Positions 871-48,275 of a stretch of 64,000 nucleotides of DNA are shown piece by piece. A model generated the notes under the pieces. The model did no database searches, was not told the origin of the DNA, and saw nothing but the letters and a program-made list of their open reading frames with translations. A program made the position numbers and the translations under genes. Every line of letters starts with the position of its first letter. Position 1 is the first letter of the stretch. The DNA comes from Firmicutes bacterium HGW-Firmicutes-9 (lineage in GTDB: Bacteria > Bacillota > Clostridia > Christensenellales > CAG-138), in NCBI GenBank assembly GCA_002841395.1, contig PGZM01000006.1, positions 1 through 64,000 on the forward strand, given 5' to 3'.

Positions 871-1935
871 TTACAGGAATTTTGAGATCTTCGTCAGGCT
901 CGCGGTGTCGTTTCGCTTGAGTGCGTCTTCCACCAGCGCGCGCAATCCTTTTTCGGACAAAAATGGAAACAGGCCGGAAACATCGTTCAACTTTTGCCCC
1001 TGTCGCAGCGCTGTGGCTACGATTTTATCGAGCGCTTCCTCCTCCAGAAACGGCGCGATAGCAGCCACCTGTGCGATGCTGCCCCCGCCCTCTACGCAGG
1101 CATTGGCAATCTTCCCAAGATCGTCCTCGTCGAGAAACGGCGCAATCGCGGCCAGTTCGCCGAGCGTGCCGCCGCGCTGAATCGTCTCCTTCGCGATCCT
1201 GCCCAAGTCATCCTCATCCAGGAACGGTGCGATCGCTGCAAGTTCACCCAGTGTGCCGCCCTTCTGCACGACGGAGAAAGCGATCTTGCCCATAGCATCC
1301 TCATCTAAAAACGGTGCAATCGCTGCGAGTTCACCAAGCGTGCCGCCGTTTTCAACCGCTGCGGTTGCGAGCTTGCCCAGCGTCTCCTCGCTGACAAACG
1401 GCGCAAGCGCGGCTAGCTTATTCAGCCCGACCGTCGGTGCAAGGCGGGTTGCCAGTTCGTCCAGATAGTCTTCATCGAGAAACGGTGCAATCGAGACGAG
1501 ACTCTCCAGATTGATCCTGTCCTGATCCTTCTGCTGCGCGGCATCTTCCCCGGCTTCCGGCGCGCTATGTTGCTCTTTCTCTTCCTCAATCGCCTTGACG
1601 ATGCGCGTTACCTGCTTGGGTTTTAAAAACGGCGCGGCTTCCCCCGCCTCGGACAGCGTGATGCGCTCGTTTTTCACAAATGTCTCTTCGCTGCCGTCGA
1701 TCACGCTGCGAATGAGATCGCCGCCGCGTCCGCCGCCCAGCAGCTCGTCTACGCTCACACCGAGCGCCTGTGCCAGCTCCGGCAGCTTGCCGATATCCGG
1801 CATGGAAGCGCCGCGCTCCCAGTTGCTGACCGCTTGGAAGCTCACGCCCATGACGTCCGCCAGCGCGGGCTGCGTCATATCCTTTTCTTTTCTCAGGCGC
1901 GAAATTCGCCGCCCGATCTCTACCGCGTCAAACAT
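871..1935 (-). CDS. XRE-family regulator with a 29-residue repeat array
   Basis: This is a 354-residue protein. Residues 5-66 form a Cro/C1-type helix-turn-helix (TQPALADVMGVSFQAVSNWE is the recognition segment). After a linker of about 80 residues, the rest is a repeat array of the pattern L-x-x-L-A-A-I-A-P-F-L-D/E-E-D-x-L-G-K-I-A. The P-F core sits at residues 102, 151, 179, 208, 237, 266, 295 and 324, so the period is 29 residues (28 once). Such units are expected to stack as helical hairpins, giving a solenoid that could bind a partner or set DNA-site spacing. A good Shine-Dalgarno (TAAGGAGAAATTATT) fixes the start at 1935. The gene is alone, with its own terminator. Ligand and targets are unknown. 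Confidence 0.85.
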   Translation of the reverse strand: MFDAVEIGRRISRLRKEKDMTQPALADVMGVSFQAVSNWERGASMPDIGKLPELAQALGVSVDELLGGGRGGDLIRSVIDGSEETFVKNERITLSEAGEAAPFLKPKQVTRIVKAIEEEKEQHSAPEAGEDAAQQKDQDRINLESLVSIAPFLDEDYLDELATRLAPTVGLNKLAALAPFVSEETLGKLATAAVENGGTLGELAAIAPFLDEDAMGKIAFSVVQKGGTLGELAAIAPFLDEDDLGRIAKETIQRGGTLGELAAIAPFLDEDDLGKIANACVEGGGSIAQVAAIAPFLEEEALDKIVATALRQGQKLNDVSGLFPFLSEKGLRALVEDALKRNDTASLTKISKFL

Positions 1936-13528: not shown

Positions 13529-13552
13529 TACAAAGCCAAATCACGTTCGGCA

Positions 13553-13712
13553 TTTGCTTCTTCCATCCGGACTCAAAACGAACAACGTTCGTCAAATTAC
13601 CGTCGGCAACGGATTCGAACCGTTTCAACCGCTGTTCTGCGGCTCGCGGGCTTGTCGGCAAATGGCTGCCGCTTCACCGCCGGTGGGGAATTGCACCCCG
13701 CCCCGAAGCTGA
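13553..13712 (-). promoter_or_regulatory. FMN riboswitch (RFN element)
   Basis: On the minus strand all conserved RFN blocks are present in order: GGGGCGGGGTGCAATTCCCC, ACCGGCGGTGAAG, AGCCCGCGAGC, GCCGACGGTAA and AGTCCGGATGGAAGAAG. P1 is closed by GCTTC with GAAGC. It controls the following ribU gene through the terminator at 13495-13528. Confidence 0.95.
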
Positions 13713-13754
13713 GATTTTCAATTGTCATCGTCGGTGTTTCACCGATTTGTGCAC

Positions 13755-23384: not shown

Positions 23385-23418
23385 TTTCTCTATTTTTTTG
23401 AGACTTTGGAGGAATTCC

Positions 23419-24360
23419 ATGGAAAAGTTGGTCATCGCCCTGGGCGGTAACGCGCTGCAGGAAGGCAACGGCCCGGCAACCGCCGAAGCGCAGCTGGAAG
23501 TCGTAGAAAAGACGTCCGCATACATCGCGGACATCATCGAAAAAGGATATCATGTCATCCTCGCGCACGGCAACGGTCCGCAGGTCGGCCGCATCGTGCT
23601 GCAAAACGAGAACTCTGTGAATGTCACCCCCGCCATGCCGTTTGACGTGTGCGGCGCGATGAGCCAGGGTATGATCGGCTATCACATGCAGCAGGGTTTG
23701 ACGAAAGCCCTCCGCGCACGCGGCAACCACACGGGCGCTGCCACCGTGGTCACGCAAGTCGTGGTCGACAAGAACGACAAAGCGTTCCTTGCACCGTCGA
23801 AGCCCATCGGTCCTTTCTATAGTGAGGAAGAGGCCAAAAAGCTCCAGGCGGAGAAGGGCTATTCCGTAAAGGAAGACGCCGGACGCGGTTGGCGCAGAGT
23901 CGTGGCTTCTCCCATTCCTGTTGAAATCGTCGAGCTGCCGGAAGTCAAGTGCCTCATCGAAGGCGGATTTGTTGTCATCACCGTCGGCGGCGGCGGAATC
24001 CCCGTCGTCCGTGAAGAGAACGGCGATCTCGTCGGCACTGCGGCTGTCATCGACAAAGACCTCGCCAGCGAAAAGCTCGCGGAGGATCTCAACGCGGACG
24101 CACTGCTGATTCTTACCGCTGTTGAGCAGGTTTGCCTCAACTACGGCAAGCCGGACGAAAAGCGTCTTTCGACCATCACGGTCGCAGAAGCGGAGCAATA
24201 CATTGCCGAGAAGCATTTTGCACCCGGTTCGATGCTGCCGAAGATTCAGGCCGCGGTCAAGTTCGCAAACAGCAAAGCTGGACGCAGAGCCATCATCACC
24301 TCGCTGGACAAAGCGGTCGACGCCCTCACCGGAGCCGCGGGAACCGTCATCGTCAAATAA
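23419..24360 (+). CDS. arcC: Carbamate kinase
   Basis: The 313-residue enzyme makes ATP from carbamoyl phosphate and ADP, the last step of arginine, citrulline, agmatine or ureido-compound fermentation. The amino-acid-kinase fold is evident from LVIALGGNALQ at the start, LAHGNGPQVG (near residue 48), VTVGGGGIPVV (near 190) and DKDLASEKLAEDLNAD. ATG 23419 follows GGAGGAATTCC. It stands alone on the plus strand in a minus-strand region, with its own promoter and terminator. In E. coli a carbamate kinase (YqeA) belongs to the ygeW-ygeX-ygeY group. A ygeW-ygeY pair is 22 kb away here, so the two may serve one pathway. Confidence 0.95.
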   Translation: MEKLVIALGGNALQEGNGPATAEAQLEVVEKTSAYIADIIEKGYHVILAHGNGPQVGRIVLQNENSVNVTPAMPFDVCGAMSQGMIGYHMQQGLTKALRARGNHTGAATVVTQVVVDKNDKAFLAPSKPIGPFYSEEEAKKLQAEKGYSVKEDAGRGWRRVVASPIPVEIVELPEVKCLIEGGFVVITVGGGGIPVVREENGDLVGTAAVIDKDLASEKLAEDLNADALLILTAVEQVCLNYGKPDEKRLSTITVAEAEQYIAEKHFAPGSMLPKIQAAVKFANSKAGRRAIITSLDKAVDALTGAAGTVIVK

Positions 24361-24498: not shown

Positions 24499-25785
24499 TT
24501 ACGGCGTCAATCGATTCGGGCTGCGGAAGAGGAACATCGCCTCCTTGATGCCAACACCCAGCAGCAGCATGGTCAGCCGGTCGACGCCAATGCCGAAGCC
24601 GCCGTGCGGTGGGCAGCCGTAGCGGAAGAACTCCGTATAGAACTTCACGTCCTCGCCCAGGCCCCGTTCCTCCGCCTGACAGCAGAGCACGTCGTAGCGA
24701 TGCTCCCGTTGCGCGCCGGTGGTGATCTCCACGCCGCGCCAGACGAGATCGTATCCCTGCGGCACGCCCTCCTTGCACATGTGGTAGAACGCGCGCTTAT
24801 CGGCTGCAAAGTCGGTGATCAACAGAAACTCGTGCCCGAACTCTTCCATCGAGAAACGGTAGCTCAGCTGCTCGGCTTCGGTGGTCGTGTCCCCGCGCTC
24901 GCTTTCGGGCAGATGGTAGCCGTAGCGGCGTTCCAGCTCACGGTAGAGCTCCGGCAGGGCGATGACGGGGAAGGGCAACTTCGGCACGACTACTTTGACG
25001 CCATAGTGGCGCAGAATTGCCTCGCCATACATTTCCTCTACACGCTCCAGCGCGTAGGTGAGCAGTTCCGCCTCCAGCTGCATCACGTCTTGGAACGACT
25101 CGATATAGGAGAACTCAAGGTCAAATCCCGTGAATTCTGTCGTGTGGCGGTTGGTATAGGATTTCTCCGCGCGGAACACGGGTCCTGTTTCGAAGATTCG
25201 CTCAAAGCCAGCCGCCATCGCCATCTGTTTGTAAAACTGCGGGCTCTGCGCGAGATATGCTTTCTTGTCAAAGTAGCCAACCTCGAATACATCGGCGCCG
25301 CTCTCACTCGCAGCGGCGATCAGCTTCGGCGTATGAATCTCTAGAAAATTACGTTGTAACAAAAACTCTCGCATGGCGGCGACAAGGCACGTTTGCACCT
25401 GAAATAGCAGCCGCTCCTTCTCTCCGCGGAGGTCAATCCAGCGATAGTCCAGCCGCGTATCGATGTTTGCCTCCTTCGTCAGCGGCAAGGGTGCGGCCAG
25501 CGAGAGCACTTCCAACTTTGTCGGAATCAACTCTCGTCCACGCAACTTTACCTGCGGGTTCTCGGTGATGATACCCTCCAGCGACACTACGGACTCCACT
25601 GTCAGCGATTCTAATAGCTCCGTCCATTCGGGATGCAGTTGCTTTTCGATGGTCGCCTGCAGGCGTCCGCTGCTGTCGCGCACGACGAGAAACGCCATAT
25701 ACCGCGTATTGCGGACGTGTTCGAGGAACCCTTCTATTTTGACCGGCTCGTTGAATGGAGCCTGTTGCATCAGTATTCGTTTCAT
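24499..25785 (-). CDS. aspS: Aspartyl-tRNA synthetase, archaeal/eukaryal-type (short form)
   Basis: This class II synthetase has 428 residues. The bacterial AspRS is about 590 residues with an inserted GAD domain that is absent here. The N-terminal OB fold carries KIEGFLEHVRNTRYMAFLVV, motif 2 is the FETGPVFRAEKSYTNRH stretch, and motif 3 is GGFGIGVDRLTMLLLG. Archaeal-type AspRS is often non-discriminating, charging tRNA-Asn with Asp for later amidation, but specificity cannot be decided here. ATG 25785 follows AAAGGAGAAGAAAG, and its first bases overlap the stop of a 26-codon upstream ORF (ATGA). A long leader with its own promoter, leader peptide and terminator precedes it. Confidence 0.93.
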   Translation of the reverse strand: MKRILMQQAPFNEPVKIEGFLEHVRNTRYMAFLVVRDSSGRLQATIEKQLHPEWTELLESLTVESVVSLEGIITENPQVKLRGRELIPTKLEVLSLAAPLPLTKEANIDTRLDYRWIDLRGEKERLLFQVQTCLVAAMREFLLQRNFLEIHTPKLIAAASESGADVFEVGYFDKKAYLAQSPQFYKQMAMAAGFERIFETGPVFRAEKSYTNRHTTEFTGFDLEFSYIESFQDVMQLEAELLTYALERVEEMYGEAILRHYGVKVVVPKLPFPVIALPELYRELERRYGYHLPESERGDTTTEAEQLSYRFSMEEFGHEFLLITDFAADKRAFYHMCKEGVPQGYDLVWRGVEITTGAQREHRYDVLCCQAEERGLGEDVKFYTEFFRYGCPPHGGFGIGVDRLTMLLLGVGIKEAMFLFRSPNRLTP

Positions 25786-25862
25786 CTTTCTTCTCCTTTT
25801 ATTTTTATTTGGCATGGACGATCGTTTCCCGCGTCCATTCCGGCATCATCCAACTGCCGCAT
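25782..25862 (-). CDS. Asp-rich upstream ORF (26 codons) overlapping aspS
   Basis: The ORF opens at ATG 25862 behind AAGGAGGTGATCC, a 13-nt perfect complement to the 3' end of 16S rRNA. The peptide begins MRQLDDAGMDAGND, so four of its first fourteen codons encode Asp. Its stop overlaps the aspS start as ATGA, and the aspS Shine-Dalgarno lies inside its last codons. It sits downstream of the leader terminator, so it is translated only on read-through transcripts. Translational coupling with aspS is expected. No homology is claimed. Confidence 0.6.
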   Translation of the reverse strand: MRQLDDAGMDAGNDRPCQIKIKGEER

Positions 25863-25883
25863 GGGATCACCTCCTTAAGTATA

Positions 25884-25917
25884 AAATAAAAAACCGCCCG
25901 ACATTCCTGCCGGGAGG
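25884..25917 (-). terminator. Attenuator terminator in the aspS leader
   Basis: On the minus strand CCTCCCGGCA and TGTCGGGCGG form a stem around GGAA, with one G-U pair and one mismatch, followed by TTTTTTATTTT. It precedes the second upstream ORF and aspS. Confidence 0.75.
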
Positions 25918-25987
25918 TTGTTCTTTCTATTGCGCTTCTCCATAGAGAAACGCCTATGATGAGCGAACCGGCCGGCGCAGAAAAGCT

Positions 25988-26028
25988 GCACTCGAGCCGG
26001 ACGCGGTTTGCGCTAACGGCTCAAGTGC
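25988..26028 (-). promoter_or_regulatory. aspS leader hairpin, candidate antiterminator control
   Basis: On the minus strand GCACTTGAGCCG (26028-26017) pairs over 12 bp with CGGCTCGAGTGC (25999-25988). The 5' arm contains the last codons of the leader peptide. The 3' arm could instead pair with GCCGG further on, which in turn could pair with CCGGC in the terminator. The arrangement allows mutually exclusive folds. Confidence 0.5.
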
Positions 26029-26066
26029 GGTCGGTCGCTATCAAGCTTGACGACGATCATGCGCAC
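26013..26066 (-). CDS. aspS leader peptide, 17 codons
   Basis: A GTG-initiated frame starts at 26066, eight bases after AAAGGAG. The product is MRMIVVKLDSDRPHLSR. Asp codons GAT (26042-26040) and GAC (26036-26034) come just before the 12-bp hairpin that includes its final codons. It begins about 20 nt after the predicted transcription start. This is the layout of a ribosome-mediated attenuator. It is inferred from position and codon content only. Confidence 0.5.
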   Translation of the reverse strand: MRMIVVKLDSDRPHLSR

Positions 26067-26094
26067 GGCGGTCTCTCCTTTTTGAGTTGAACCT

Positions 26095-26123
26095 ATTCTA
26101 TTGCGAACAGGTCTTGTTGTCAA
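26095..26123 (-). promoter_or_regulatory. aspS leader promoter
   Basis: On the minus strand TTGACA (26118-26123) and TAGAAT (26095-26100) are exactly 17 bp apart. This is one of the best promoter matches in the window and drives the leader-aspS transcript. Confidence 0.8.
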
Positions 26124-27447: not shown

Positions 27448-28329
27448 TTACTCTTTTCCAGAGATTTTCTCAAACACCCGCTCAAGGTCCTCACGGGAGA
27501 AGTATTCGATCGTAATCTTGCCGCGCGTGTTGCTGCCGGCGAGGGAGACCTTGGTGCCCAGCGATTCACGGAAGGATTCTTCTAGTGAAGCGAGTTCCGC
27601 GGGCAAGCGCGGTTTTTCTTTTTTCGCGGGAAGAGTGGCTTTCTTTTTCTCGGAAAGCGCTTTGATCCGCTCTTCCAGCGTACGGACAGAATATTCCCGC
27701 TCAACGCATTCTTTCGCGAGCTGCTCGATTTGCACGTTGTCGGTCAGTCCCGCGAGGGTTCTGCCGTGGCCCGCGGAGAGCACGCCGCTCTTGAGCAGGT
27801 CGATGACGCTTTCCGGCAGCTGCAAGAGCCGCAGCGCATTGGCAATCGCGGGACGGCTCTTGCCGAGACGGCCGGAGACTTCCTCCTGCGTCATATCGTG
27901 CTGTTTCATCAAAAAGCGGATGGCTGCCGCTTCTTCAATCGGATTCAGATCTTCGCGCTGGATGTTTTCAATCAGCGAGACTTCGTGAATCTGCGCCTCA
28001 TCATAATCCGCAACCAACACCGGCACTTCGGAAAGTCCCGCAAGGCGCGCCGCACGGAATCTGCGTTCTCCCGCGATGATCATATAGCGGCTGCCTTTTT
28101 TCTTGACGATCAGCGGCTGCACGATGCCATGCACACGGATGGACTCCGCGAGTTCGTTGAGCGAAGTTTCTTCAAACTGCTTGCGCGGTTGGAGTGCGTT
28201 GGTGTCGATGTCGCGGACACTGATGGTCAGAATGCCCGCGCCGGATTTCTCCTGCTCCTCGACAGAGGCGGAGTAGGGATCCAGCAGCGCGTCCAATCCG
28301 CGACCGAGTCCCGTTTTTTGCGCGGCCAT
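27448..28329 (-). CDS. parB: Chromosome-partitioning protein ParB (Spo0J)
   Basis: This 293-residue CTP-dependent DNA clamp loads at parS sites and helps recruit SMC. It has the N-terminal ParB/sulfiredoxin domain with IAGERRFRAARLAG (the CTP-binding region), the ENIQREDLNPIEEA motif, then the helix-turn-helix with SGRLGKSRPAIANALRLLQLP, and a C-terminal dimerisation region. It overlaps the parA stop (TAATG). Three parS sites lie upstream of parA, next to the operon promoter, so ParB may repress its own synthesis. Confidence 0.96.
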   Translation of the reverse strand: MAAQKTGLGRGLDALLDPYSASVEEQEKSGAGILTISVRDIDTNALQPRKQFEETSLNELAESIRVHGIVQPLIVKKKGSRYMIIAGERRFRAARLAGLSEVPVLVADYDEAQIHEVSLIENIQREDLNPIEEAAAIRFLMKQHDMTQEEVSGRLGKSRPAIANALRLLQLPESVIDLLKSGVLSAGHGRTLAGLTDNVQIEQLAKECVEREYSVRTLEERIKALSEKKKATLPAKKEKPRLPAELASLEESFRESLGTKVSLAGSNTRGKITIEYFSREDLERVFEKISGKE

Positions 28330-29093
28330 TATTTGTCCTCCTTGGCGATCATCTCGCTGGCGAGGGAGGTATACGCGGTGGAACCCGCGCTGTTGGGCGC
28401 GTAGCGCGTGATCGGAAGACCGAATGACGGCGCTTCGCCGAGGCGGACGCTGCGCGGAATGATCGTATCATAAACCTTGTTCTTGAAGAATTTTTTGACT
28501 TCCTCGACCACCTGCATGGAAAGATTCGTGCGGGAGTCGAACATTGTCAGTACAACACCTTCGACGTCCAGGTCGGGATTGAGGCTCTTTCGCACGAGTT
28601 TGACCGTGTTCATCAAAAGGCTCAGACCCTCCAACGCGTAGAATTCACACTGGATCGGAACCAGCAGTGTGTTCGCCGCGGTCAGCGCGTTGAGTGTCAA
28701 AAGACCAAGAGACGGGGGACAGTCAATAAAAACATAGTCATAGCCGCCCTTTGTAGCATTCAAGGCGCGCTTGAGCACCTGTTCACGCGCGAGCATGTTG
28801 ACCAGCTCGACTTCTGCGCCGGCGAGGGAGATGTGCGCGGGGAGAAGCTTCAAGGTATCGATCATGGTGTCTTTGGTCGCTTCATCGACGGAAACGTCGT
28901 TGATCAATACATCATAGATGGATTTCCCGTCGCCTTCTTTTTTTACGCCGAGACCGCTGGTGCTGTTGCCCTGCGGGTCTGCGTCTACAAGAAGAACGCG
29001 CTTACCCTGCTCCGCAAGGCACGCGCTAAGGTTCACAGCGGTGGTCGTTTTGCCGACGCCGCCCTTTTGATTCGCTATCGCAACGATTTTCAT
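28329..29093 (-). CDS. parA: Chromosome-partitioning ATPase ParA (Soj)
   Basis: The 254-residue ATPase has the deviant Walker A KGGVGKTTTAVNL (residues 10-22), Walker A' VDADPQGNSTSGLG and Walker B FIDCPPSLGLLT. In Bacillota Soj also acts on DnaA to control initiation, which fits its position near dnaA. The start follows GGAGGAACATTCTCTGTT (spacing somewhat long). It is co-transcribed with parB from the promoter at 29176-29204. Confidence 0.97.
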   Translation of the reverse strand: MKIVAIANQKGGVGKTTTAVNLSACLAEQGKRVLLVDADPQGNSTSGLGVKKEGDGKSIYDVLINDVSVDEATKDTMIDTLKLLPAHISLAGAEVELVNMLAREQVLKRALNATKGGYDYVFIDCPPSLGLLTLNALTAANTLLVPIQCEFYALEGLSLLMNTVKLVRKSLNPDLDVEGVVLTMFDSRTNLSMQVVEEVKKFFKNKVYDTIIPRSVRLGEAPSFGLPITRYAPNSAGSTAYTSLASEMIAKEDK

Positions 29094-29175
29094 AACAGAG
29101 AATGTTCCTCCGATATTCTTGTCCTCTCGGTTGAGAGTCGTTTAATTGATTGGGTAAATTTAAACCGCTACCGCC

Positions 29176-29204
29176 ATTCTAGCAGAAATAGGGGGGTGAT
29201 TCAA
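29176..29204 (-). promoter_or_regulatory. parAB promoter
   Basis: On the minus strand TTGAAT (29199-29204) and TAGAAT (29176-29181) are 17 bp apart. The -35 directly abuts the first parS site (29205-29220). Confidence 0.7.
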
Positions 29205-29220
29205 TGTTTCACGTGAAACA
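29205..29220. promoter_or_regulatory. parS site 1
   Basis: TGTTTCACGTGAAACA is a perfect match to the consensus TGTTNCACGTGNAACA bound by ParB. It touches the parAB -35 element. Confidence 0.95.
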
Positions 29221-29305
29221 AATAGGGTATAAGAGCTTTGGTGCTGTTTTAAATAAACTTCTAACAAATCAAATTTATCTCTGTTTCACGCGATCAATCT
29301 TAAAA

Positions 29306-29321
29306 TGTTTCACGTGAAACA
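29306..29321. promoter_or_regulatory. parS site 2
   Basis: A perfect TGTTTCACGTGAAACA, 101 bp from site 1. A decayed half-like copy (TGTTTCACGCG) lies at 29282. The gap 29094-29549 holds no gene. Confidence 0.95.
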
Positions 29322-29401
29322 ATGGGTTGTGATACAGAAATGCTTCAACTACTATAGATAGAATTCTGAAGAAGAATAATTACTACACGATTGATGAGAA
29401 A

Positions 29402-29417
29402 TGTTTCACGTGAAACT
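29402..29417. promoter_or_regulatory. parS site 3
   Basis: TGTTTCACGTGAAACT differs from the consensus only in the last base. It is 96 bp from site 2. Confidence 0.9.
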
Positions 29418-29549
29418 TTCACTTCTTCTTGTTTTTAAAAGATTAATATTAAAAAAGATGTTTTCTATCTATAATTATGAGTTTTCAAAATAGCATGATA
29501 GATAGAAATTTTCTCTCTTCTTAAACGTATATGCAGATTGTAAAAAATA

Positions 29550-29918
29550 CTACTTTTCTATAATCTCCACAATAACGACTTCATTGCCATCCGGATCCTT
29601 CACTCTCAATTCATATGTACCCCATTCAAACCTGACAGGCGGTTCAAAAGAAAGTCCTTTCGTCTTCAACTCATCGCAGGTATTGTCTAAATCATCACAA
29701 ACAAAAACAAAAGACATTGTTCCGCTGACAGGCGTATTCCATTTACTCGCATCCCACAGACATATCGTTGGAGCATTTTCAAGAAAACCCAGATTCACTC
29801 CATCAAATTCGTCTACAATCGTGTTTAATATGGGAACTCCTAATTTCTCATGGTAAAACGCTTTGAGCAACTTCACATTCTTTGAAAAAACATTTGTACA
29901 AGAAAAACTTTGAATCAT
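29550..29918 (-). CDS. VOC-superfamily (glyoxalase-like) protein
   Basis: This is a 122-residue protein with one vicinal-oxygen-chelate domain. It opens with SCTNVFSKNVKLLKAFYHEKLG and closes with the metal-binding FEWGTYELRVKDPDGNEVVIVE, the usual beta-alpha-beta-beta-beta halves. Members include glyoxalase I, bleomycin and fosfomycin resistance proteins and dioxygenases. There is no resistance context, so no activity is assigned. It lies between the parS region and dnaN. Confidence 0.8.
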   Translation of the reverse strand: MIQSFSCTNVFSKNVKLLKAFYHEKLGVPILNTIVDEFDGVNLGFLENAPTICLWDASKWNTPVSGTMSFVFVCDDLDNTCDELKTKGLSFEPPVRFEWGTYELRVKDPDGNEVVIVEIIEK

Positions 29919-30023
29919 TTTAGTTTTTTCCTTCTCTTAGCCTAGAAATTTGTGAAAACTCGATTTAAACTATCTCTCGCAAAAAAGCTGTCCTTTCAGA
30001 CAGCTTCTTTTCATTCAAACTTG

Positions 30024-31127
30024 TTAGAAGTTGGAATAGATTCTGACAGGCACGATCAGAAAATAATATCCCTCTGTCTTTGCTGGGCGAATCACGCAAG
30101 GGCTGATGCTGGTCGTGAAATCCATATAGATTTTATCGTCCGGCACATTCTTTAGTACGTTGATGCAAAAACGCGGGTTGAACGCGATATCGATATCCTC
30201 GCCGTTGATCTGAACATCCATCTCTTCGTTGATCTTTCCGGCGAAGCTATTGGCGGTGATCGTCAGCTTATTGTTATGAAACTTCATGACGATGTTGTTG
30301 TTGCCTTCTCGTGCCATCAGCTGCGCACGATCGATGCTCTCCATGAGTTCGCATTTATCGATCATGACGCGCGTGGTGTGATCCTTCGGCAGAATATTCT
30401 TATACTTGATATAGTCTCCATCAAGCAATCTAGCAACCAAACGGGAATGTCTGATGTTTACGCAGACATGCGTTTTGGTGAATGTGAGTTCGACTTCCGC
30501 CTCCGTCTCGTCCATCATGCGGGAAATCTCCATCATGGATTTTCCGGGAATGACGACATTGCGTTCCGGTACCGGATTCTTCAACGGCATGGAACGCTTG
30601 GCAAATTGAAACGCATCGGTTGCAACAATCGTAATCTCCTCACCGAGCTCCATTAGTACGCCGGTTAAAATCGGCTTGCTGTCGTCCTGTGCTGTGGCAA
30701 ACACGGTTGTATTGATCATATCCTTGCAATCGGAATGATCCATTTTAACTGTGAATGTTTCTCCCGTGAAGCGCATCTCGGGAAACTCTTCTGTTGCTTC
30801 CACGCACTGCAGGCTGCTCTTTGCTCTGCCGCAGGATATATCCAGCGACTTTCCGGAGAGCGTCACTTCTGCGATAGATTCCGGCAGCTTACGAACAATT
30901 TCGGAAAACAACTTTCCGGGTACGATGGCAAAACCCTCTTCCTCTATGGTCGCGGGTAAAAGGCATTCTTTTTGGAGCATCAGATCCGAACACTTGAGTT
31001 TGACACCTTCGGCTGTTGCCTCCACATAGATGCCTTCCAAAATAGGCATCGTGGTTCTTACGGGAAGCGCTTTGATGACAGAGAGAACGCCTTCTGTCAA
31101 TTCTTTCGAGTCAATGTAAAAATGCAT
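30024..31127 (-). CDS. dnaN: DNA polymerase III beta subunit (sliding clamp)
   Basis: The 367-residue clamp dimer tethers polymerase to DNA. It opens MHFYIDSKELTEGVLSVIKA, shows the three-domain pattern (for example LPVRTTMPILEGIYVEA, then IPGKSMMEISRMMDE), and ends FLIVPVRIYSNF, close to the usual LxPVR terminal segment. It is downstream of dnaA on the same strand, but with about 490 bp of origin-like sequence between them. The usual next genes (recF, gyrB, gyrA) are missing. Confidence 0.96.
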   Translation of the reverse strand: MHFYIDSKELTEGVLSVIKALPVRTTMPILEGIYVEATAEGVKLKCSDLMLQKECLLPATIEEEGFAIVPGKLFSEIVRKLPESIAEVTLSGKSLDISCGRAKSSLQCVEATEEFPEMRFTGETFTVKMDHSDCKDMINTTVFATAQDDSKPILTGVLMELGEEITIVATDAFQFAKRSMPLKNPVPERNVVIPGKSMMEISRMMDETEAEVELTFTKTHVCVNIRHSRLVARLLDGDYIKYKNILPKDHTTRVMIDKCELMESIDRAQLMAREGNNNIVMKFHNNKLTITANSFAGKINEEMDVQINGEDIDIAFNPRFCINVLKNVPDDKIYMDFTTSISPCVIRPAKTEGYYFLIVPVRIYSNF

Positions 31128-31616
31128 GGTTCAACTTCCTTTCTCAGCGCTTGTATAATCTTCTTTATTTCAGATAGATAGATTTTACACAATTTATTAT
31201 CTCTGGTTGTAATTTTAGAACCAGCGGTATTTTGGGTAAGATTCAAGAAAACAGTATTCGAGAAAACGGCACGTTCAAAATCGCATTTTCGTTTCGGTTA
31301 TCCACACCTAACCGCGTGAAAGTGTGTTTATGATAACTAGTAATACAGAAGCAGTAGAAGTAGTATAGTGTGGGTAGTGTGTAGAACGGTGTTTTACCGC
31401 GTAAGAACGCGGTTTTGGCTGTGGAGTGGTTCGTGGAAAACCGGCTCGGGTTATCCGACCTTATACACACACTCCATACGCTCCACACACTACACATTGC
31501 ATCCACAATCGATGTCCACAAAATGTGGATAACGTGTGGATCGAATTTCTCCCGGGTAAAATGATAGAAATTTCTTTATTTGGAAACAGAAAAACGTGAT
31601 TTCGAAAAAGAATGGC
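31128..31616. promoter_or_regulatory. Candidate oriC: dnaA-dnaN intergenic region with DnaA boxes
   Basis: Perfect DnaA boxes are at 31298-31306 (+), 31461-31469 (TTATACACA, +) and 31524-31532 (-). Near-matches lie at 31451 and 31511-31540. An AT-rich stretch at 31145-31220 could unwind. A run of xAG triplets (CAG TAG AAG TAG at 31352-31363) resembles DnaA-trios. Coding strands are minus to the left and mostly plus to the right of dnaA, as expected near an origin. Confidence 0.65.
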
Positions 31617-32927
31617 TTACACCATTCTCTTTTTCACATCCTCAATCACCGAGGCAAAGGAGCTGTCCGAATCGATCATTTCTTCCACGCGCTTGCAGGC
31701 GTTGATGGCGGTGGTGTGATCGTTCTTGTCAAACAGCGTGCTGATGCGCTTGTAGGGAATGCTCAACATATCGTGGCAGAGATACATCGCAACCTGACGC
31801 GGCAGAACAATCTCGCGATCGCGCCGCTCAGAAAGCAGGCTTTCGACCGGGATCGAGTAGTATTCCGCAACGGTGCTTTTGATGATCTGCGGGGTGACTT
31901 CTTTTTTCTTCACGTCCGGCAGCAGATCGCGCAGCGCTTCGATGGTTAGTTCCAGTGTGAGCGGACGGCGGCGTAGCTGAGAATAGGCCACCACGCGCGT
32001 TAAGGAGCCCTCCAGCTCACGAATGTTGCTCACCACGTGCTCCGCGATGAACTGTATGATCTCGTCGTCTACGTCGAGGTTATCGAGCCTGGCGCGATTT
32101 CTGAGAATAGCGATTCGCGTCTCCACATCCGGCGGTTGAATATCCGCAATCAGACCCCATTCGAAACGGGAACGCAAGCGCTCCTCAAGACTGCTGATTT
32201 CCTTCGGTGGACGATCGGAACTGATGATGATCTGCTTATTGGCGTTATGGAGCGTGTTGAAGGTGTTGAAAAACTCCTCCTGCACGGACTGTTTCTTGGC
32301 GATGAACTGCACGTCGTCGATGAGCAGCACGTCGACATTGCGATAGCGCTTGCGAAACTCGAGACGCTTGTCCAGCTGGATCGCGGTGATGAGCTCGTTG
32401 GTGAAGGTTTCGCTGGTGACGTACATGACCCGCGCGGAAGGGTCATTTCCCTTGACCGAGTGGCCGATGGCATGCATCAGGTGCGTTTTGCCCAGACCTA
32501 CGCCGCCATACAGGAACAGCGGGTTATACGCTGCAGCCGGATTTTGCGCAACAGCAAGTGCTGCCGCGTGCGCAAAATGATTGGACCCGCCGACCACGAA
32601 TGTTTCAAACGTATATTTCGGGTTTAATGCAAATACATTGATGGGTTCCGAGCTGATGGGATTGATATAGATGTCGCGATCTTCCGGCAGGATGATGCGA
32701 ATGTCCGAGACGGTTTCGTTTGCCGCCTTGACCGCGTCACGCAAATTATCAAAATAGAAGTCTTCCAGTGTTTTTTGGATATCCGGCGTTGGGACTTCGA
32801 GGATTAAAACATCCTTCGATAGCGTCAGGGGTACTATCACGTCGATCCAGGCGTGAAACGACAGCCCCGTCATTTGAGGACGGATATTCTCCCGCGCGGC
32901 CGCCCAAATCGATTGCAGTTGGTCCAT
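31617..32927 (-). CDS. dnaA: Chromosomal replication initiator DnaA
   Basis: DnaA (436 residues) binds TTATNCACA boxes and opens the origin. Domain I (1-80) is followed by an unusually short linker, so the AAA+ domain starts near residue 100. Walker A is GGVGLGKTH (141-149) and Walker B is VLLIDDVQFIAKK. Domain IV has the box-reading helix-turn-helix with the DHTTAINACKRVE signature near the C-terminus. The start follows AGGGGGTATATCACT. Its promoter is at 32955-32983. Confidence 0.98.
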   Translation of the reverse strand: MDQLQSIWAAARENIRPQMTGLSFHAWIDVIVPLTLSKDVLILEVPTPDIQKTLEDFYFDNLRDAVKAANETVSDIRIILPEDRDIYINPISSEPINVFALNPKYTFETFVVGGSNHFAHAAALAVAQNPAAAYNPLFLYGGVGLGKTHLMHAIGHSVKGNDPSARVMYVTSETFTNELITAIQLDKRLEFRKRYRNVDVLLIDDVQFIAKKQSVQEEFFNTFNTLHNANKQIIISSDRPPKEISSLEERLRSRFEWGLIADIQPPDVETRIAILRNRARLDNLDVDDEIIQFIAEHVVSNIRELEGSLTRVVAYSQLRRRPLTLELTIEALRDLLPDVKKKEVTPQIIKSTVAEYYSIPVESLLSERRDREIVLPRQVAMYLCHDMLSIPYKRISTLFDKNDHTTAINACKRVEEMIDSDSSFASVIEDVKKRMV

Positions 32928-45480: not shown

Positions 45481-45559
45481 AGGCGCACCGTTTCCGGTGC
45501 GCCTTGTTGTTATGTTTCTTGGTTGTGGATTAGTCTTCCAGACCCGCCTGGCGTTCCAC
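45481..45559. repeat. 79-bp direct repeat, right copy (ygeW 3' end and terminator)
   Basis: The intact copy covers the last codons of ygeW and its terminator GGCGCACCG-TTTC-CGGTGCGCC. The left copy is at 43810-43888. The two enclose the TetR/ICMT operon. Confidence 0.85.
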
Positions 45560-46741
45560 GGCGGCTTTTTCCAGCTTCTTGAGCATGGCGGCGGGGTCTT
45601 TGACCTTCGCGAGGAAGATCATGGCCGCGATGATGTACGGCTTGAAGGAAGCCTGCTTGTAGAGCGGATCGCGGTAGCGGTCAAAGACCGTCGCGGCGAC
45701 TTCGCCCGCTTCGCAGCTCACGCCGGTGATGTCGGCGGGCAGGCAGTGCAGATAGAGCGCCTTGCCGTCCTTGGTCTTGGCCATGAGCTCTTCGGTGCAT
45801 TCCCAATCCTTGTGCTCGGCGTTCTGCTTGAGCAGCTTCTTCTCGAGGGCCTTGATGCCGTCGGAATCGCCGTTGCCGTACAGCTCCGTGCGCTCTTCCA
45901 TCGCCTTAAACGGCGCCCAGCTCTTCGGGTACACGATGTCCGCGCCTTCGAACGCTTCCGCCATGTTGTTGGTGACGGTGAATTTGCCACCGCTCTCCGC
46001 GGACTGGCGCTTGGCGACTTCGATGACGTCGTCCATGACTTCGTATCCTTCCGGATGGGCCAGAACGACTTCCATGCCAAAGCGGGTGAACAGGCCGATG
46101 ACGCCCTGCGGGACGGACAGCGGCTTGCCGTAGCTGGGGCTGTATGCCCAGGTCATGGCGATCTTCTTGCCCTTGAGGTTTTCCACACCGCCGAACTCGC
46201 GGATGCAATGCGCCATATCGGCCATGCACTGCGTCGGGTGGTCGATGTCGCACTGGAGGTTGACAAGCGTCGGCTTCTGCTCGAGCACGCCGTCGATGTT
46301 GCCCTGCTTGACAGAGTCGACAACCTCGTGCATGTAGGCGTTGCCTTTGCCGATGTACATGTCGTCACGGATACCGATGACGTCCGCCATGAAGCTGATC
46401 ATGTTTGCGGTTTCGCGGACGGTTTCGCCGTGCGCAATTTGGCTCTTGCCTTCGTCGAGATCCTGCACTTCAAGACCCAGCAGGTTGCAGGCGGACGCGA
46501 ACGAGAAACGCGTGCGGGTGCTGTTGTCTCTAAAGAGGGAGACGCCGAGGCCGGAGTCGAAGATCTTCGTGGAGATGTTGCGCTCGCGCAGGTTGCGCAG
46601 CGCGTTGGCGACGGTGAACACCGCGTCCAGCTCGTCACGGGACTTTTCCCACGTCAGGAAAAAGTCGTCTTCGTACATGCCGTCAAACTTCAGGTTTTCC
46701 AGTTCCTTCGTGAACTGCTTGATGTCTTCCTTTTTACCCAT
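45530..46741 (-). CDS. ygeW: YgeW-family knotted carbamoyltransferase
   Basis: The protein has 403 residues. The carbamoyl-phosphate site is DNSTRTRFSFASACNLLGL (STRTR), with HPTQCMADM and HCLPAD as in aspartate/ornithine transcarbamoylases. The extended N-terminus (FTKELENLKFDGMYEDDFFL) and the length are those of YgeW, a transcarbamoylase whose true amino acceptor is unsettled. ATG follows AGGAGTGAGTTT. It lies after ygeY with a strong hairpin between. In enteric bacteria these genes belong to a purine/ureide and diaminopropionate-linked cluster. Carbamoyl phosphate made here in reverse could feed the carbamate kinase at 23.4 kb. Confidence 0.92.
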   Translation of the reverse strand: MGKKEDIKQFTKELENLKFDGMYEDDFFLTWEKSRDELDAVFTVANALRNLRERNISTKIFDSGLGVSLFRDNSTRTRFSFASACNLLGLEVQDLDEGKSQIAHGETVRETANMISFMADVIGIRDDMYIGKGNAYMHEVVDSVKQGNIDGVLEQKPTLVNLQCDIDHPTQCMADMAHCIREFGGVENLKGKKIAMTWAYSPSYGKPLSVPQGVIGLFTRFGMEVVLAHPEGYEVMDDVIEVAKRQSAESGGKFTVTNNMAEAFEGADIVYPKSWAPFKAMEERTELYGNGDSDGIKALEKKLLKQNAEHKDWECTEELMAKTKDGKALYLHCLPADITGVSCEAGEVAATVFDRYRDPLYKQASFKPYIIAAMIFLAKVKDPAAMLKKLEKAAVERQAGLED

Positions 46742-46809
46742 AAACTCACTCCTAAATTTTCTTGTTGGTTTTATTGAAACTTACAATAGGTCGGAAAGAG
46801 AAAACAAGT

Positions 46810-46834
46810 GCAGGGCGGGCAAAGCCCGCTCTGC
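46810..46834 (-). promoter_or_regulatory. Intercistronic hairpin between ygeY and ygeW
   Basis: GCAGAGCGGGC-TTT-GCCCGCCCTGC forms an 11-bp stem with one mismatch, followed on the minus strand by ACTTGTTTTCTC. It may reduce read-through or protect RNA ends, setting different levels of the two enzymes. Confidence 0.6.
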
Positions 46835-46847
46835 ACGATGCTTGCGT

Positions 46848-48221
46848 TTAGCAGGCAGATTTGTCAGAGGTGGTGTCCGTGCCGCCCGCGCGGAACTGGC
46901 AGACATCCTCGCTACCCTGGCCTTTATACATGGAGGGAATCAGCGCGTAAACAGCCGCGCAGGTCACGAGGTCCTGTTTCCAGGTGATCTCGTTCGGCGC
47001 GTGCGCCTGGCTCTCCGCACCGGGGCCGAAGCCGACGCAGGGGATGCCGTAGCGGCCCTGGATAGCGACGCCGTTGGTGGAGAACGTCCATTTGTCGATC
47101 AGCGGACGATTACGAAGGTGCATGGAACCCGCGGGTCCAATGCGCTTTTCGCCGTAGAGCGCCTTGTGCGCGTCGGCAACTGCCTGCACGTGGCCGGCGG
47201 TTTCCTTGTTGATCCATGTCGGGAAATAGCACTCGGTTTCATACACGAGACCGGTCCATGCGGGACGATCGTACATGTACATGCTCACCACTGCGCCGTG
47301 CTTTTTGCACGCGGGCAGGTTTTCGATTTCTTTCAGGCAGCTTTCCCAGGTTTCACCGGCGGTCATGCGGCGGTCGATCGAGATCGAGCAGCTGTCCGCA
47401 ACGGCGCAGCGGGAGGGGCTGGTGAAGAAAATCTGCGAAGTGGTGCAGGTGCCTCGTCCGAGGAAGCGCGCGTCTTCGTAGTGGTTGGGGTTAAACTTGG
47501 GATCAAGCATCTTGACGAGACCCTTGATTTCGTCTTTGTCTTCGCAGCCATTGGCGTTGAGGGCTTCGACGTCCTTGAGGATATCCGCCATCTTGTAGAT
47601 CGCATTGTCGCCGCGCTCGGGGGCGCTGCCGTGGCAGGAGATGCCCTTGACGTCGACGCGGATTTCCATACGACCGCGGTGTCCGCGATAGATGCCGCCG
47701 TCGGTCGGCTCGGTGGAGACGACGAATTCCGGCTTGATCTTGTCTTCGTTGTGGATGTACTGCCAGCAGAGACCGTCACAGTCTTCTTCCTGCACGGTTG
47801 CCGTCACGAGGATTTTGTAGCCTTCGGGAATCAGGCCGAGGTCTTTCATGATCTTCGCGCCGTAGACAGCGGAAACCACGCCGCCTTCCTGATCGGAACC
47901 GCCGCGCCCATAGATCACTTCGTCGGTTTCATAGCCTTCGTAGGGGTCTTTTTCCCAGTTGTTGATGTTGCCGATGCCGACGGTGTCGATGTGGCCGTCG
48001 AAGGCGATGATCTTATCTCCGGTACCCATCCAACCGAGGGCGTTTCCTTCGGGATCGATTTCGGCCTTGTCAAAGCCGAGCGCTTCCATTTCCTGAATGG
48101 TGCGCTTGACGACGCCTTCCTCTTCGCAGCTTTCGCTGGGAATCGCGATCAGATCGCGGAGGAATTTGGTCATCTGCTTTTCATAAGCCTGCGCCGCTTG
48201 TTTGACCTTGCTGGTATCCAT
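46848..48221 (-). CDS. ygeY: YgeY-family M20 metallohydrolase
   Basis: This 457-residue M20 peptidase-like enzyme is of the YgeY type, often linked to selenium-dependent purine or ureide catabolism in comparative genomics. Metal ligands are in [10 protein letters not shown] (His), [10 protein letters not shown] (Asp) and [11 protein letters not shown] (Glu-Glu), and the late His lies in the [14 protein letters not shown] segment. The dimerisation domain has [27 protein letters not shown] overall. ATG 48221 is preferred; an earlier start lacks support. It lies between a regulator gene and ygeW. The substrate is not established, and no ygeX, hyuA or ssnA is in the window. Confidence 0.92.
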
Positions 48222-48275
48222 GGTGCGTGAACTTCCTTTCTTCTGCTGTGGCCGCAGCCGCAGCATGCGGCCGGG

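Follow-up and report, generated by a model that had tools for sequence, protein, structure and literature searches.

In Bacillota, the control of aminoacyl-tRNA synthetase genes is usually credited to T-boxes. A ribosome-mediated attenuator of a tryptophanyl-tRNA synthetase gene was reportedly found in Streptomyces by Vecchione and Sello in 2010, and we know of no second ORF with cognate codons between the terminator and the gene in that system. Such transcriptional attenuation of an auxiliary tryptophanyl-tRNA synthetase gene is cited in PMC4787780; candidate his attenuators exist in Bacillota (PMC9413887), and a T-box precedes one of the aspS copies in C. acetobutylicum (PMC2494555). As the original prediction for the present locus had supposed, no aspartate attenuator or similar arrangement at aspS was found described in the open-licence literature. 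Here we propose, with a probability of roughly 0.8, that the leader of an archaeal-type aspartyl-tRNA synthetase (AspRS) gene, aspS2, is a ribosome-mediated transcription attenuator which senses the charging of tRNA-Asp and controls this accessory enzyme, a second leader ORF (ORF2) probably being another Asp-sensitive step.

The window, a stretch of 64,000 nucleotides from Firmicutes bacterium HGW-Firmicutes-9, contains this leader on the minus strand, between a promoter and the start of aspS2 (Table 1); the start was set at 25785 as the likely one, against an in-frame ATG upstream at 25815. All of the elements named in the original prediction (promoter, ORF1, 12-bp hairpin, terminator, ORF2 and the ATGA overlap of ORF2 with aspS) were present on that strand, and an additional third hairpin, P2, was found between segment 3 and the terminator. 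The last codons of ORF1 sit within the 5' arm of P1, and ORF2 opens with MRQLDDAGMDAGND, with four Asp in 14 codons. The leader folds far better than shuffled sequences (z -4.7), and four terminator-like sites were seen against 0.7 expected (700 bases scanned, both strands). The Shine-Dalgarno sequence AAGGAGGTGATCC occurs once in the genome, at the ribosome site of ORF2. The 13-nt 16S 3'-end sequence GGATCACCTCCTT was found only at that site in assembly G000, which thus seems to be without a complete 16S gene.

Table 1. Features of the aspS2 leader in the window
Feature	Position	Strand	Basis or remark
Sigma-70-type promoter, TTGACA-17-TAGAAT	26095..26123	-	Consensus scan, 11/12 consensus matches
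ORF1 leader peptide, GTG start, 17 codons, VRMIVVKLDSDRPHLSR	26013..26066	-	Asp codons 9 and 11
ORF1 Asp codons	26042-26040 and 26036-26034	-	D-x-D in 12/12 related leaders
Hairpin P1 (segments 1:2), 12 bp	25988..26028	-	5' arm 26028-26017, 3' arm 25999-25988
Competing hairpin 2:3, CCGGCTCGAGTGCAG with CTGCGCCGGCCGG	25968..26000	-	Constrained folding; predicted with ribosome over segment 1
Antiterminator 3:4, GCCGGCCGGTT (25976-25966) with AACCTCCCGGC (25919-25909), enclosing P2	25909..25976	-	Predicted folds
Hairpin P2, 9 bp	25932..25953	-	Same place, different sequence in relatives
Intrinsic terminator, stem and T-run	25888..25919	-	Terminator scan
Shine-Dalgarno AAGGAGGTGATCC of ORF2	25864..25876	-	13 nt complementary to 16S rRNA 3' end
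Small hairpin over ORF2 codons 2-8, 7-nt loop with Asp codon 5	25841..25859	-	Folding
ORF2, 26 codons, MRQLDDAGMDAGNDRPCQIKIKGEER	25782..25862	-	Asp conserved at codons 5 and 10 in all relatives
aspS2, archaeal-type aspartate--tRNA ligase, 428 aa	24499..25785	-	NCBIfam PRK05159 above cut-off

The absence of a T-box sequence, noted in the original prediction, was confirmed, as RF00230 had no match in the window leader at the gathering score or at E 5, and no other credible Rfam match was found there. Furthermore, the leaders of the distant carriers gave no T-box match at the gathering score. A known RNA (T-box or other) was rejected as the identity of the leader. A repeated element was also rejected on account of the single copy per genome, and a search for plasmid and phage relatives of the leader gave no match. 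Elsewhere in the window, we observed an FMN riboswitch (13551-13714, minus strand) above the gathering score, carbamoyltransferase-like and peptidase-like genes that appear YgeW/YgeY-like by eye (45530-48266), and, near aspS2, an origin-like region (27448-32927) with parB/parA-like (27448-29093), dnaN-like (30024-31127) and dnaA-like (31617-32927) genes. The carbamate kinase gene arcC (23398-24360) adjoins aspS2, and no link of this or other neighbour genes to the leader was seen.

The leader design is present in at least twelve genomes of Clostridia; five belong to one genus, and the remaining seven come from different genera, families and orders. Four relatives in the genus of the window, whose aspS genes are 84-86% identical, share the layout of a 17-codon ORF1 with Asp 9 and 11, stem, terminator and ORF2; L003 is a fifth relative of the genus, in which the end of the contig cuts the leader inside ORF2. 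Hexamers like those of the window promoter occur at the same place in L032, L034 and L035. The stem is built from CACTTGA/TCGAGTG in some of the relatives in the genus and from CACGCAA/TTGCGTG in others. These leaders also have the segment GCGCCGGCCGG, either as such or as a variant, a hairpin that differs in sequence but not in place, and an ORF2 of the pattern M-R-x-x-D-D-A-G-x-D. A covariance model (R2) was built from the 47-nt block at the start of ORF2; in 396 genomes of the order it matched four times, each time directly upstream of archaeal-type aspS, and two of these matches were in other families. With a refined model (R3), which was searched in the family and the class, all of the matches of at least 31 bits were directly upstream of archaeal-type aspS; together with L016, found through a protein match and thus independently of the ORF2-block model, this brought the total to twelve leaders. 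R3 matches of 27-30 bits (L134-L136 and L154-L158) were discarded, as none of them lies near aspS.

In 398 genomes sampled from the phylum no further true match turned up, and none of 84 other archaeal-type aspS loci had the ORF2 block at a credible score; most proteins of these 84 loci are closer to the window aspS2 than the proteins of the distant carriers are. A model of P1 and segment 3 (R1) found leaders of the same genus only. In the protein tree, a long branch with full support divides the carriers into two groups, one with the genus of the window and L133, the other with L016, L130, L126, L127, L152 and L153; the PRK05159 type occurs in both. Two histories would explain this: an old leader that was often lost, or its transfer between aspS lineages. 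At L014 (1083-1358), a T-box (RF00230, E 2.8e-14, below the gathering score) lies before the archaeal-type aspS2 of G058, a genome of the same family as that of L127. A 6S RNA gene was also observed upstream of the related aspS at L015, on the opposite strand (1181-1366, minus strand).

In all of the twelve leaders, ORF1 carries D-x-D or DDD, with both GAT and GAC in use; thus, a short ORF that carries codons for the amino acid of the regulated synthetase, a defining part of an attenuator, stands before aspS in each case. Within the genus the motifs are DSD, DID, DID, DCD and DID. Beyond it, the peptide ends with DDDR (L126 and L152), DIDP (L127), DTDL (L016), DTD (L130), DDDP (L133) and DDDKRRLRL (L153), directly followed by the stop codon. 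Besides Asp, no residue of ORF1 is conserved throughout the twelve. The first base of the first Asp codon precedes the stem by 14 nt in each of the twelve leaders, although in L153, where the stem can be extended by two weak pairs, this spacing depends on where the stem is drawn to begin. The distance from the start codon to the stem varies from 38 to 50 nt, and the stop codon lies anywhere between 5 nt upstream and 13 nt downstream of the first base of the stem. The Asp codons are wholly upstream of segment 1 in every leader, the second codon of D-x-D ending 5 nt before it. The footprint of a ribosome reaches about 15 nt from the P site, and judged by this spacing a ribosome with the first Asp codon in its A site would end about at the stem. 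The fixed 14-nt distance is a natural ruler for the position of the ribosome.

The outer seven pairs of P1 are 100% paired across the leaders, and four of them covary with a score that was reached by none of 500 shuffles; the alignment leans to the structure, since it was cut by hand around the stem. An intrinsic terminator, with stem energies of about -13 to -21 kcal/mol, lies between the leader ORF and the gene in all twelve, and a competing hairpin on the 3' arm of P1 is predicted in nearly all. For the computed switch, only the RNA downstream of the ribosome was left free and the chain was ended before the 3' arm of the terminator; the score was the probability that the terminator 5' arm is paired upstream, with a stall at the first Asp codon against a ribosome at the stop. 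The score drops from stall to stop by 0.34 on average, compared with 0.014 +/- 0.052 when the sequence between stop and terminator was shuffled (none of 100 as large); the window itself goes from 0.75 with the ribosome stalled to 0.02 with the ribosome at the stop. Hairpins that exclude each other depending on the position of the ribosome, another property of attenuators, are thus predicted over the leader set, but L033 and L127 individually show no computed switch.

The first tier of the original prediction, in which a stall at Asp codons forms 1:2 and frees GCCGG to block the terminator, is well supported by the twelve leaders, the exact spacing, the covariation and the computed switch. The prediction had also suggested a comparison of leaders in related Clostridia, which gave Asp codons in all twelve and covariation in P1, and folding with and without the 5' arm covered. 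The latter gave a switch when the downstream RNA alone was free, but none in the expected direction in the window when the RNA upstream of the ribosome was left free, and thus the switch result depends on the former treatment. Ribosome masks with a free 5' end gave a weaker, mixed picture compared with downstream-only folding. For most leaders, folding the full length at equilibrium leaves the terminator favoured even when the ribosome is stalled; the switch is therefore assumed to be kinetic (co-transcriptional).

We propose that, when Asp-tRNA is scarce, the ribosome on ORF1 would stall with an Asp codon of D-x-D in its A site. Its downstream edge would lie just before the stem, so that P1 (1:2) could form and leave segment 3 free to pair with the terminator 5' arm (3:4, around P2), and RNA polymerase would read through into aspS2. 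With plentiful Asp-tRNA, the ribosome would reach the stop codon and cover segment 1, segment 2 would pair with segment 3, and the terminator would form. Such a leader is like the trp and his attenuators in controlling transcription, through an intrinsic terminator and hairpins that exclude each other, and in having a leader ORF that contains regulatory codons. However, termination accompanies the hairpin 1:2 in trp and his leaders, whose regulatory codons lie within segment 1 or overlap it, whereas in the aspS2 leader the codons precede segment 1 entirely and 1:2 goes with the antiterminator and read-through. Because of this opposite parity, an untranslated leader is off in trp and his, and mostly predicted to be on in the aspS2 leaders. 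T-box leaders likewise sense uncharged tRNA and regulate genes of this kind; however, there the RNA reads the charging, whereas here the ribosome would read it. Ribosome-mediated attenuation is a known kind of control, and it is the aspartate signal, the reversed parity compared with trp and his, and the conserved second Asp ORF that set the aspS2 leader apart.

One possible objection is that the leader attenuates in response to a general slow-down of translation or a ribosome-targeting drug, as in the erm leaders, since a ribosome held anywhere upstream of the stem would suffice. In folds with no ribosome, the antiterminator is indeed favoured in most leaders, although not in the window, and it follows that not reaching the stop would often switch the gene on. 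However, the Asp codons are the sole conserved codons of ORF1, at a fixed distance to the stem in all twelve, and the controlled gene is an Asp-tRNA ligase in every case, which makes a general signal improbable. It is slightly less probable still that the leader is a ligand- or protein-binding RNA (bound, for example, by AspRS2 at the hairpin of the ORF2 start) and that the Asp codons are by-products of a conserved RNA. Although conservation in the leader is highest in the ORF2 start block, which contains a hairpin of 6 bp and a 7-nt loop, covariation in this hairpin is weak (120 of 500 shuffles were as good), and GAT and GAC interchange in ORF1 and at codons 5 and 10 of ORF2, where the neighbouring codons are free to vary.

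As for ORF2, every one of the twelve leaders has Asp at codons 5 and 10, and Asp 6 is replaced by Tyr or His in three. The conservation is in part selected for, since the search that yielded most of the distant leaders used a model of this block. The GGNGGTG core of its Shine-Dalgarno sequence is kept in most relatives. In the ten leaders where the distance was measured, ORF2 starts 76-88 nt upstream of aspS. Its frame relative to aspS varies, its stop ranges from about 30 nt upstream to 140 nt downstream of the aspS start, and the ATGA overlap was observed in no leader other than those of the window, L033 and L003 (the last partly sequenced). Since the overlap is rare and the frame and stop vary, coupling to aspS is not the conserved function of ORF2, and this role was rejected; from the second tier of the original prediction, the ORF and its two Asp codons stand, but the coupling does not. 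Opening or closing of the aspS ribosome site by stalling in ORF2 was also rejected, as local folding gave no consistent effect.

With its strong Shine-Dalgarno sequence and its Asp codons 5 and 10, ORF2 is probably a second, post-terminator Asp-dependent step, which might act through ribosome traffic over the aspS start or through protection of the mRNA by a stalled ribosome. More tentatively, one mRNA may read the charging of Asp-tRNA at ORF1 by attenuation and again at Asp 5 and 10 of ORF2, gating the translation of aspS2 or the life of the mRNA by a mechanism not yet described, before two deeply diverged lineages of archaeal-type AspRS. It seems rather unlikely that ORF2 is not a sensor, its near-perfect Shine-Dalgarno sequence being an mRNA stabiliser (STAB-SD type) or a ribosome loading site and its peptide incidental. 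Strong Shine-Dalgarno sequences and stalled leader ribosomes do stabilise mRNAs of Bacillota (PMC3997798), and the variable stop and frame of ORF2 would fit; however, the conserved Asp 5 and 10 are encoded by both GAT and GAC, and the Shine-Dalgarno sequence is weaker in L133 and L152. The erm-type leader ORFs and strong-SD stabilisers (PMC3997798) are a possible parallel for ORF2, although signal and target differ.

The aspS2 protein scores slightly below the cut-off of TIGR00458. Because its genome also encodes a complete bacterial AspRS, together with an AsnRS-sized homologue, aspS2 is regarded as a spare copy. A bacterial AspRS was above the cut-off in 12 of 13 genomes checked, the exception being the 73%-complete G001; it is in pieces in G002 and incomplete in G463. 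G007, of the same genus and 93% complete, is without the spare aspS gene. In addition to its leader-controlled archaeal-type gene, the carrier G424 has two bacterial-type AspRS genes, at L146 and L151 (C14 and C21 of G424), with open frames of 602 and 714 aa, and the aspS of G123 (L127, 283-1506, minus strand) is seemingly frame-shifted near its 3' end, by sequencing error or decay. Presumably, aspS2 is induced when Asp-tRNA runs low. The Streptomyces Trp system is similar in that an accessory, non-housekeeping synthetase is under a leader-peptide attenuator with cognate codons; it concerns Trp in Actinobacteria, whereas the aspS2 leader concerns Asp in Bacillota.

Several lineages have a predicted peptide attenuator before archaeal-type aspS, and one relative has a T-box there; the two solutions are therefore directly comparable. 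Furthermore, the payload of microcin C is an AspRS inhibitor (PMC9239234), and an inducible spare AspRS of the archaeal type suggests a back-up against such inhibitors, this payload being one example. If that is the case, the leader would be a ready reporter for inhibitors of AspRS.
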